Shown: piece by piece, positions 35,180 to 55,899 of the stretch
How the letters are laid out: each line of letters begins with the position of its first letter
Numbering within the stretch: the stretch's first letter is position 1
Assembly: GCA_039030075.1 (NCBI GenBank)
Contig: JBCCEW010000004.1
Location: 151,826 to 215,825 of the forward strand
Direction of reading: 5' to 3'
DNA: 64,000 nt
From: Myxococcota bacterium
GTDB lineage: Bacteria; Myxococcota_A; UBA9160; SMWR01
The notes under the pieces: generated by a model
What the model was told of the DNA's origin: nothing
Database searches by the model: none
What the model saw: the letters and a program-made list of their open reading frames with translations, nothing else
Position numbers and translations under genes: made by a program

Positions 35180-36559
35180 GTGACCACCACCCCCCGCCCG
35201 CCCGCAGCCGCCCGCGCGAGCTACCCCCGGCGCCCCGGAAACGAAGTCGTCCCCTGGCTGGAGGGTGGACCGGCCTTCGCACGCATCGTGGCGGCGGTCG
35301 ATGCCGCCGAGCACAGCGTCTGGGTCACCGTGGCCTTCATCGAGCGGGACGTCGTCCTTCCGGGCGGCCGCAGCTTCTTCGATGTGATCGACGCCGCCGC
35401 AGCGCGCGGTGTCGACGTGCGCGTGTTGTTCTGGCGCGAGCCCCAGCTCCAGGCACTCGACCCGGGCTCGACCCACTTCGGCGGCGACGCGACCGACCGG
35501 GCCTTCCTGCGCAGTCGCCAATCCCGGATCCGCGTCCGCTGGGACCGACTGCCCGGTGGGTTCGCGCAGCACCAGAAGAGCTGGCTCCTCGACGCGGGAA
35601 CCGGTTCCGAGCTCTGTTTCGTCGGCGGCCTCAACCCGACATCCAGCTCGATGAGCGACCCGGAGTACACGGCGCTCGACGCCGGCAACGTCCACGACTG
35701 CTGCCTCGAGATTCGCGGCCCGGCCACCACCGACGTCCACCACAACTTCGTGCAGCGCTGGAACGAAGCCAGCGACGGCCAGGCGGAAGACGGGCACTGG
35801 CCCGAGGGCGAGCCGGCGGGCCCGCTCACGTTCCCCGACTTCGTGACGCCCCCCGCCGGAGACGTCGCGGTCCAGATCACGCGCACCGTCCGCGCCGGCA
35901 CCTACCGAGACGACACGGCGAGCCCGGGAGCGAAGCCCTTTGCGATCGCGGAAGGCGAGCAGAGCGCGCTCGAGCAGTACGTCTCGGCGGTCGCGAGTGC
36001 CGAGCGCACCCTGTACATCGAGAATCAGGCGATCGCGTCGCCGATCTTCGTGGAGGAGATGCAGCAGGCCCTGGCGCGCGGCGTCCGGGTCGTGTGCCTG
36101 GTTCCCGGCCGGGCACATCCCGCCTTCGTGATGGCGCGCCGCGACCCGCGCGCGACTCCTTTCTTCGAGCAGCTCGCCGGACTCGCGCGCTTCGAACACT
36201 TTACCCTCGCCGCGCTCTGCCAGACGCGTGCGCCCGGCCGCTACGACGAGATCGGCATCCACGCGAAGGTGGCGATCGTCGACGACGAGTGGGCCAGCGT
36301 CGGCTCCACCAACGTCGCCGAGCGCTCCTTCCGCCACGACACCGAACTCAACGCGGCCTTCTGGCACCCGGTGCAGGCGCGGGGGCTGCGCGAATCACTG
36401 TTCGCGAATGCCCTCGGCGCGTCCGTCGCGGGCGACGGCGAGGTGGCCGCCTTCGATCGCTTCCGCGACGTCGCGCGGGCCAACCTGGACCGACGCACGC
36501 TCTGGGAACCCCTCGAAGGCCGGGCCTACGCGCTCGATCCGGCCCAGTACGGCGCCTGA
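35180..36559 (+). CDS. Phospholipase D-like / cardiolipin synthase-type protein
   Basis: 459 aa from a GTG start. Two HKD motifs are present: HQKSWLLDAGTG near 131 and HAKVAIVDDEW near 362, the latter followed by ASVGSTN as in cardiolipin synthases. Typical bacterial cardiolipin synthases carry two N-terminal membrane helices; this protein lacks them and resembles soluble PLD-type phosphodiesterases with FVGGLNPTSSS after the first HKD. Phospholipid head-group exchange or hydrolysis is the likely reaction. It lies in a run of four same-strand genes ending with the selenoprotein. Confidence 0.85.
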   Translation: MTTTPRPPAAARASYPRRPGNEVVPWLEGGPAFARIVAAVDAAEHSVWVTVAFIERDVVLPGGRSFFDVIDAAAARGVDVRVLFWREPQLQALDPGSTHFGGDATDRAFLRSRQSRIRVRWDRLPGGFAQHQKSWLLDAGTGSELCFVGGLNPTSSSMSDPEYTALDAGNVHDCCLEIRGPATTDVHHNFVQRWNEASDGQAEDGHWPEGEPAGPLTFPDFVTPPAGDVAVQITRTVRAGTYRDDTASPGAKPFAIAEGEQSALEQYVSAVASAERTLYIENQAIASPIFVEEMQQALARGVRVVCLVPGRAHPAFVMARRDPRATPFFEQLAGLARFEHFTLAALCQTRAPGRYDEIGIHAKVAIVDDEWASVGSTNVAERSFRHDTELNAAFWHPVQARGLRESLFANALGASVAGDGEVAAFDRFRDVARANLDRRTLWEPLEGRAYALDPAQYGA

Positions 36560-36566
36560 GGGGGGC

Positions 36567-36860
36567 GTGGGCGAAGCGCGCCTGCCCGCGGACGTCCGCG
36601 CGCGACTCGGTCGCGAGTTCGCCGGGGAGAGTTTCTTCGAAGCCCTGCGCCTGCTCGAGACCCTCGGCCAACCCGGACGGGTCACGCGGGCGGTGGTGTT
36701 CCTCGCCGCGGGAAACTTCGACGACCTCCGCCTCTACGCCCGGCAAGCGGAGCGCGACTGGCGCGACGTGGTGTTCTGGGCGGAGTACCAGGACCACGAG
36801 TCCGACGCGCCTCGCCACGTGCGCTCGATGGAAGATCCGTTTCCGGACCCGATCGACTGA
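36567..36860 (+). CDS. Small conserved-looking protein of unknown function
   Basis: 97 aa from a GTG just after GAGGGGGG, seven bases past the stop of the phospholipase D-like gene, so probably cotranscribed. It is amphipathic with helix-rich FFEALRLLETLGQ and a hydrophobic strand TRAVVFLAAGNF, and ends acidic (MEDPFPDPID). No cysteine, signal peptide or membrane segment is present. I do not recognise the family. Codon use looks like the neighbours, which supports a real gene. Confidence 0.6.
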   Translation: MGEARLPADVRARLGREFAGESFFEALRLLETLGQPGRVTRAVVFLAAGNFDDLRLYARQAERDWRDVVFWAEYQDHESDAPRHVRSMEDPFPDPID

Positions 36861-36905: not shown

Positions 36906-36931
36906 GGTCGCAACGACAGTTGGAGGTGACG

Positions 36932-37273
36932 ATGGCCAAGAAGGTCGACTGGTACTACCACCGCAAGGGCTGAACGTCCTGCACCCGAGCGTCCAAGTTT
37001 CTGGACGCCCAAGGAATCGAGCCCGCCGAGACCGTGTCCGCCAGCAAGAAGCTGGGCAAGACGGACGCGGCCGCACTCGCGAAAGCCGCCAGCCTGGTGA
37101 TCGTCGCCAAGGGCAAGAAGGTCAGCGAGTTCAAACCGGGCGGAAAGGCTTCGGCCGACGTGGTCGAAGCGATGTTGGGGCCCACGGGAAACCTGCGGGC
37201 TCCCACGCTGCGTCGCGGGAAGACGGTGATCGTCGGCTACAACGACGACGTCTTCGACGCGCAGCTCGGCTGA
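36932..37273 (+). CDS. ArsC/Spx-family selenoprotein (in-frame UGA = selenocysteine)
   Basis: 113 aa if the UGA at 36971-36973 is read as selenocysteine (residue 14). The ATG at 36932 follows GGAGG at 36922-36926. The N-terminus WYYHRKG-U-TSCTRASKFL aligns with Spx/ArsC proteins, whose redox motif is CTSCRKA, so the UGA falls exactly on the catalytic cysteine and leaves a UxxC pair (Sec14, Cys17). The C-terminal half keeps the family end (GNLRAPTLRRGKTVIVGYND). Reading UGA as stop would give a 13-aa peptide and an orphan tail. A SECIS-like hairpin lies just downstream. Expected role: thiol/selenol reductase, with the substrate unknown. Confidence 0.85.
36989..37008 (+). promoter_or_regulatory. 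Bacterial SECIS-like hairpin
   Basis: GCGTCCA pairs perfectly with TGGACGC around a six-base loop AGTTTC. The loop begins 22 bases after the in-frame UGA (36971-36973), and G is among its first two bases. These values fit the published bacterial SECIS pattern for SelB-directed selenocysteine insertion (stem at least four pairs, loop 16-37 bases after UGA). The hairpin lies inside the coding sequence, as expected in bacteria. Confidence 0.75.
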
Positions 37274-37280
37274 CGTCGCT

Positions 37281-37308
37281 GCGGGGCTCGTCTTCGGGCG
37301 AGTCCCGC
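37281..37308. terminator. Hairpin between convergent genes
   Basis: A 10-bp stem with one G-T wobble (GCGGGGCTCG against CGAGTCCCGC) and an eight-base loop lies eight bases after the selenoprotein stop and before the convergent glycosyltransferase stop. No T-run follows, so its termination strength is uncertain. Confidence 0.45.
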
Positions 37309-37339
37309 TCGGCAACCCCGAGCAGAACGGCCCGCGCGC

Positions 37340-54981: not shown

Positions 54982-55899
54982 TCAAACCGCCGCGTCGGCC
55001 TCGTCCCGGGGCCGCCAGCCACCCGGCACCGCCCCCTCGGGCACACCGGCGGGCACGTCGATCTCCACCGGCCGGATCGGGCGGCGCAGCTCGGGAAGCT
55101 CGGCCCGGGCCATCTCCTCGCGCACCTCTTCCGGGAACTGGTCGAGCCAGTCCTGGGGCAGGGGCAGGCCCTCGACCCGGGCACGCGCATAGGCAGTGAG
55201 CTGGCAGAGGTAGCGCTCGGTCTCGCGGCACAGCTCCTCGAAGCGCTTCGGCTCCCAGGCATCGCGGGGTGGATGGATCGGCCCCCCGTAGACGTGCACG
55301 ATGTGATTGAAGGGCAGCGGGATCAGCGAGCGATCCCAGGTGGGCAGCCGGTAGTAGCGCTTGCACCAGGTCTTCTCGGCAAACAGGCGCGACTCACACG
55401 CGACCGCGATGCTGACGGCGCCGCGCTTCATCCGGTACACGGGGCCCGTCGAGCCGTCTGTGGTGATGCCGTAGAGCACCCCGGGCGTGTGCTTCATGTG
55501 ATCGATCATCGCCTGCACGGTGTCGACCGAAGTGCGCCGCTTCTGACTCGAGCTGGAACCACCACGGAACACGTTGAAGTTACACAGCTGCAGCATCTTC
55601 GTGATGATCGCGCCCGAGTCACCGCGACTCGCCAGCGTGTCGGGTCGGTAGTTGCGGAACGACCAGGCCACGAAGAAGACCTCGTCGTGCCAGAGCGCCC
55701 AGACGCCTTCGCCAACCTCGGCGCGCACCTGGTCGGGACGGAAGCCGATCTCTTCCACGCGGCTCGTCTTGTAGACGAACCACATGTACGCGACATAGAG
55801 ATAGGGAACCGTGTAGAGGCCGAGCGTCATCAGGACGCGACGCAGCGCCTTCTTGGCGCGGCGCTTCCCCGAGGTCGTGCGGCGCTCCGAAGCTCCCAT
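54982..55899 (-). CDS. DUF374-like lysophospholipid acyltransferase
   Basis: 305 aa with an N-terminal membrane helix (LYTVPYLYVAYMWFVY, about 28-43). The acyltransferase landmarks are LWHDEVFFVAW near 70 (H-x4-D-type), FNVFRGGSSSS near 109, GITTDGSTGPVYRMKRGA near 142 and PLPFNHIVHVYGGPI near 190. This pattern matches DUF374, an LPLAT-like clade predicted to acylate lipid A or lysophospholipid precursors in the envelope. It is on the same strand as the aldo/keto reductase just upstream (31 bases). Confidence 0.78.
   Translation of the reverse strand: MGASERRTTSGKRRAKKALRRVLMTLGLYTVPYLYVAYMWFVYKTSRVEEIGFRPDQVRAEVGEGVWALWHDEVFFVAWSFRNYRPDTLASRGDSGAIITKMLQLCNFNVFRGGSSSSQKRRTSVDTVQAMIDHMKHTPGVLYGITTDGSTGPVYRMKRGAVSIAVACESRLFAEKTWCKRYYRLPTWDRSLIPLPFNHIVHVYGGPIHPPRDAWEPKRFEELCRETERYLCQLTAYARARVEGLPLPQDWLDQFPEEVREEMARAELPELRRPIRPVEIDVPAGVPEGAVPGGWRPRDEADAAV

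Follow-up and report, generated by a model that had tools for sequence, protein, structure and literature searches.

Locus and reading frame

The window, by which we refer to the whole 64-kb stretch of DNA that was analysed, carries on its plus strand a short gene that is interrupted by an in-frame UGA codon close to its start and lies between a phospholipase D-like gene and a glycosyltransferase gene. The features of this region are as follows:

35180..36559, plus strand: phospholipase D-like protein, upstream neighbour (Pfam PLDc_2)
36922..36926, plus strand: Shine-Dalgarno sequence GGAGG, seen in the sequence 5 nt upstream of the ATG
36932..37273, plus strand: ArsC/Spx-like predicted selenoprotein gene, 113 residues, selenocysteine (Sec) at residue 14, terminal stop UGA
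36971..36973, plus strand: UGA codon 14, assigned as Sec by homologue comparison, residue one of the U-T-S-C motif
36980..36982, plus strand: Cys17, partner in the UxxC motif
36989..37008, plus strand: putative SECIS hairpin, 7-bp stem 36989-36995/37002-37008, loop AGUUUC 36996-37001
37271..37273, plus strand: terminal UGA, stop; homologues stop near the same point with TGA, TAG or TAA
37340..38077, minus strand: family 2 glycosyltransferase, convergent downstream neighbour (Pfam PF00535)

The frame comprises 114 codons from the ATG at 36932, with 99 sense codons between the UGA at codon 14 and the terminal UGA, and its product (with UGA given as U) begins MAKKVDWYYHRKGUTSCTRASKFLDAQG. The first-pass annotation had described a start codon preceded by GGAGG, a UGA at codon 14 and an open, family-like frame beyond it, and all of these coordinates were reproduced. 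An automatic gene caller using table 11 would either miss such a gene or cut it off at the UGA. When the window was scanned for further coding-like read-through frames with UxxC or CxxU motifs, this gene was joined by just a single poor candidate, at 55325 (minus strand).

There was no sign of a functional link between the selenoprotein gene and either flanking gene: the phospholipase D-like neighbour is conserved within the same genus only, and gene-neighbour comparison revealed none shared beyond close relatives, so that the surroundings offer neither an operon clue nor the signal of an ars operon. A small open frame of 97 aa without a Pfam match lies between the phospholipase D-like and selenoprotein genes (36567-36860). 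Directly after the terminal UGA there is a 12-bp hairpin with a UUCG loop (37281-37310; -31.1 kcal/mol, z -2.24), which is stronger than the SECIS hairpin and lacks a G at either of its first two loop bases; this is perhaps a transcription terminator or a convergent end shared with the glycosyltransferase gene.

Conservation of the UGA site

In order to analyse the UGA in an evolutionary context, we assembled 102 distinct homologous genes, drawing on 48 loci from named genome records of several phyla and on others from a phylum sample. The codon at the UGA site is TGA in 101 genes and TGC in one, which bears out the proposal that UGA occupies the place of the catalytic cysteine, and three residues later 101 genes encode Cys and one encodes Ser; the active-site motif U14-T-S-C17 of the window protein thus has its like throughout the homologues. 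The terminal stops are mixed (47 TGA, 41 TAG and 13 TAA), and the inner TGA therefore reflects more than a preference for one stop codon. Downstream of the UGA, dN was lower than dS in seven comparisons against the window gene. 

Whole-genome searches show that conservation of the frame on either side of the UGA goes beyond chance, and this is a stronger observation than the hairpin of the window sequence by itself. The family model NF041106 found a match in 41 of 61 relative genomes, and in 40 of these a single in-frame TGA is present, either within an undivided match or within one piece of it: in G019 the match is split in two with the TGA in one piece, whilst in the sole exception, G012, the match covers only the C-terminal part beyond the UGA. 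Matches were present in 84 of the 379 genomes of the phylum sample, nearly all with one TGA, and in nine of 294 genomes in an order-wide search around a gammaproteobacterial homologue, each with one TGA; the phage records searched gave no match. Sec is thus near-universal in the sampled family. The frames of two homologues from G002 and G019, L117 and L118, look damaged, possibly through assembly errors or because these are decaying copies.

The first-pass annotation had expected cysteine at this codon in homologues, and one such protein was found: L109, the sole Cys homologue, has TGC and the motif CETC. Its genome (G365) retains selB, so that a lost Sec machinery is not what forced the exchange of Sec for Cys. 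L109 shares a contig with selB, at a distance of about 1.5 kb downstream of it (G365:C28:293041-296766). The single serine at the second motif position belongs to another homologue (L091:3001-3345), in which Sec is kept and the resolving Cys is replaced, giving UxxS instead of UxxC.

Selenium machinery of the genome

It had also been predicted that the genome would carry selA, selB, selC and selD, and our genome search found all four: selA, selB and selD each scored over their curated cut-offs, and a tRNA-Sec (selC) was identified over the cut-off and in agreement with ARAGORN (tRNA-SeC, anticodon TCA). The same genome contains a second selenoprotein candidate, a SelW-like frame whose CARU motif is encoded with an in-frame TGA (L139; G000:C8:159980-160183, minus strand). 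SelB was over the cut-off in all 18 of the family-bearing genomes that were checked separately. Some family-bearing drafts among the 61 relatives showed no selB over the cut-off (for example G011, G016 and G054); these are mostly fragmented assemblies, and incomplete assembly could explain the missing gene.

The hairpin downstream of the UGA

Counted from the UGA, the stem starts after 15 nt and the loop after 22 nt. A published model of bacterial SECIS elements (PMC13188914) calls for a loop of 3-9 nt, a stem of 4-16 bp, a G within the first two loop positions, a distance from UGA to loop of 16-37 nt and an MFE of at most -7.5, and the window hairpin agrees with every one of these terms (loop of 6 nt with G in second place, stem of 7 bp, 22 nt, -12.3 kcal/mol). 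The geometry reported in the first-pass annotation (7 bp, AGUUUC, 15 and 22 nt) hence stands, although the hairpin of a single sequence does not serve as evidence by itself: its fold was not significant against dinucleotide shuffles (z -0.62), and when the same peptide was recoded synonymously about 8% of the sequences formed a 7-bp stem at this place and 17% folded equally well. An Rfam scan of the 64-kb window returned nothing above threshold, and so no ready-made SECIS model is available for this hairpin.

What is within chance for the window sequence alone is lifted far beyond it by the homologues. We examined 98 distinct, ungapped 60-nt stretches starting from the UGA for the 7-bp stem, allowing two registers one base apart, and compared them with 1000 codon shuffles that preserve each protein and the codon pool of each column. 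A perfect 7-bp stem was found in 74 of the 98 homologues, compared to 40.2±3.9 in the shuffles (maximum 55), and at least 6 bp in 91 compared to 81.2±2.7 (maximum 88); as the homologous sequences are related, these shuffle counts do not amount to exact probabilities. The pairing signal is by far strongest at the hairpin's own position: once the stem was moved by 1 to 12 bases the signal was mostly gone, with at most 28 of 98 sequences retaining six pairs. Compensatory pair changes are frequent (G-C, C-G and A-U at offsets 20/35, for example), and the GUU of the loop is retained in 96 of the 98 homologues. Divergent clades display a hairpin at the same place with quite different sequence and GUU at its tip, and it is hard to find another explanation for same-place stems of unlike sequence in clades so distant. 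This hairpin is missing from the Cys homologue L109, as is expected if the structure serves Sec insertion.

Decoding of the UGA

Taken together, we consider UGA 36971-36973 to be decoded as selenocysteine, and the locus to be a genuine selenoprotein gene, with a probability of roughly 0.93 on this comparative evidence. The inference in the first-pass annotation that this genome reads UGA as Sec is accordingly upheld: the machinery is present, every homologue that was read carries Sec or Cys at the site, and the hairpin covaries. Alternatively, the codon could be an ordinary stop, or could stem from a nonsense mutation or an error in sequencing, leaving a shorter protein with a downstream start or a dead gene. 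A GTG at 37034 does open a frame of 79 aa, and the genome does use UGA as a normal stop, including at the end of the selenoprotein gene itself. Against this, the same TGA recurs in 101 of the 102 distinct genes, which come from numerous assemblies and span several phyla; the protein is conserved on both sides of the UGA, with dN < dS downstream of it, the catalytic motif spans the codon, and the Cys exchange in L109 falls on exactly the same codon. We therefore regard these readings as highly improbable. Still further from being credible is that UGA has a different amino acid meaning genome-wide (as in code 4 or 25), for which no support was found: the Sec machinery is complete in this genome, and TGA closes the selenoprotein gene as well as 46 homologues, at the point where others use TAG or TAA.

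For the Sec reading, SelB carrying Sec-tRNA(Sec) would bind the hairpin at 36989-37008, upon which the UGA at 36971 would be decoded as selenocysteine, as the comparative evidence suggests. Judging from motif and fold, Sec14 would then act as the attacking selenolate, with Cys17 most likely being the resolving thiol of a Sec-x-x-Cys selenenylsulfide cycle.

Family and fold

The window protein matches the family model NF041106 ('ArsC family (seleno)protein') with 115.9 bits against a cut-off of 85 and over the complete profile (1-107 of 107), and all 41 proteins of our alignment match this model at an E-value of 0.001 or better. Two broader models remain below their thresholds: Pfam ArsC (PF03960) with 13.8 bits against a gathering score of 24, and the Spx/MgsR model TIGR01617 with 19.4 bits against 75.05. 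Comparison of the family profile with solved chains retrieved Spx and ArsC-related proteins, with Spx as the best match (E 4e-10). The predicted structure (pLDDT 85.7) most resembles an ArsC-related protein (3gkx, Z 9.2) and Spx (3ihq, Z 9.0), with glutaredoxins at Z 6-7.5. The protein is thus predicted to adopt a thioredoxin fold of the ArsC/Spx type, although the fold matches are moderate (Z about 8-9, TM about 0.5), and function can for this reason only be inferred. The invariant positions of the alignment are Arg11, U/C14, Gly61, Gly83, Gly86, Arg89, Pro91 and Gly102; Arg11 and Arg89 are the only invariant arginines, and Pro91, which we take to be the counterpart of the thioredoxin-fold cis-proline, is preceded by alanine (Ala90) in 40 of 41 proteins.

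Possible function

A role in arsenate reduction is suggested by the family name, by the ArsC-like fold and by the N-terminal catalytic position, which aligns with that of both the ArsC arsenate reductase and YffB. Nevertheless, E. coli ArsC requires an arginine triad (Arg60, Arg94 and Arg107; PMC3169414) that is not evident in the alignment of the window protein, where the only invariant arginines are those at positions 11 and 89 and alanine precedes Pro91; the triad is absent from YffB-like proteins. With no ars operon signal and no neighbours conserved beyond close relatives, we consider an arsenate reductase unlikely. The second option, a selenium-containing form of Spx, the RNA polymerase-binding redox-switch regulator, draws on the best profile matches being Spx chains and on alignment of the Spx CxxC with UxxC: the Spx of Bacillus subtilis provides the nearest solved structures by sequence profile, with C-x-x-C at the same place. 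However, the window protein is shorter than Spx, scores far under the cut-off of the Spx model, and appears to lack the segment bearing Gly52, a residue that is needed for contact with the alphaCTD (PMC2801614); in the profile alignment, which is approximate near the gap, this stretch of Spx lies opposite a gap of four residues. An Spx-like regulator thus also appears improbable, and neither arsenate reduction nor Spx-type RNA polymerase binding is supported. As the ArsC triad is not evident, the Gly52 segment falls in a gap and no neighbours are conserved, a stand-alone redox role is the most likely one, and we lean towards a glutaredoxin-like selenol/thiol oxidoreductase that may act on a small-molecule or protein substrate.

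Relation to known selenoproteins

The family to which the window protein belongs is already named and catalogued: NF041106 (ArsC_rel_Se_1), an 'Arsenate reductase-like protein' with UxxC, is listed amongst the known prokaryotic selenoprotein families in a 2026 review (PMC13188914). The window protein falls within this family over the curated cut-off with Sec at the same position of UxxC, and there is no difference in kind: it is one more member, from a draft genome, and hence a well-supported but ordinary selenoprotein. A survey of the GOS metagenome (PMC2398784) described 'Arsenate reductase 2' (cd03032), which resembles the window protein in its UxxC, its Spx-type domain and its Sec within a thioredoxin fold, and which is probably the same as, or overlaps with, the present family. 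Cys forms predominate in 'Arsenate reductase 2' (238 Cys homologues compared to 42 Sec forms), whereas Sec is near-universal in the narrower family sampled here. Proteins of Desulfotalea psychrophila and Desulfuromonas acetoxidans (PMC1794560), both Deltaproteobacteria, are by their description likewise ArsC-like with Sec. A literature search for an Spx-like selenoprotein by that name found none.

What is new here is the codon-controlled covariation of the SECIS hairpin, the hairpin-less Cys form as a natural control and the finding that nearly all sampled members of the family have kept Sec. The covariation at codon level, with the Cys form alongside, allows a bacterial SECIS element within coding sequence to be tested cleanly by comparison, and the almost complete retention of Sec makes this family a good candidate for asking what selenium gains over sulfur. 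The further proposal, that this is a near-obligate selenoprotein family whose chemistry needs selenium, with Cys forms almost never kept even in the presence of SelB, is an unlikely one; if true, it would point to a substrate, or to a role as a redox switch in the manner of a selenium-based Spx, that is unserved by known glutaredoxins and arsenate reductases.

A divergent clade of four homologues (L112, L113, L114 and L115; 23-31% identity) has the motif YGRAUTGC or YGRIUTGC together with a strong hairpin and an in-frame TGA. In whole-genome searches its matches lie below the NF041106 cut-off, and it may represent a separate subfamily.
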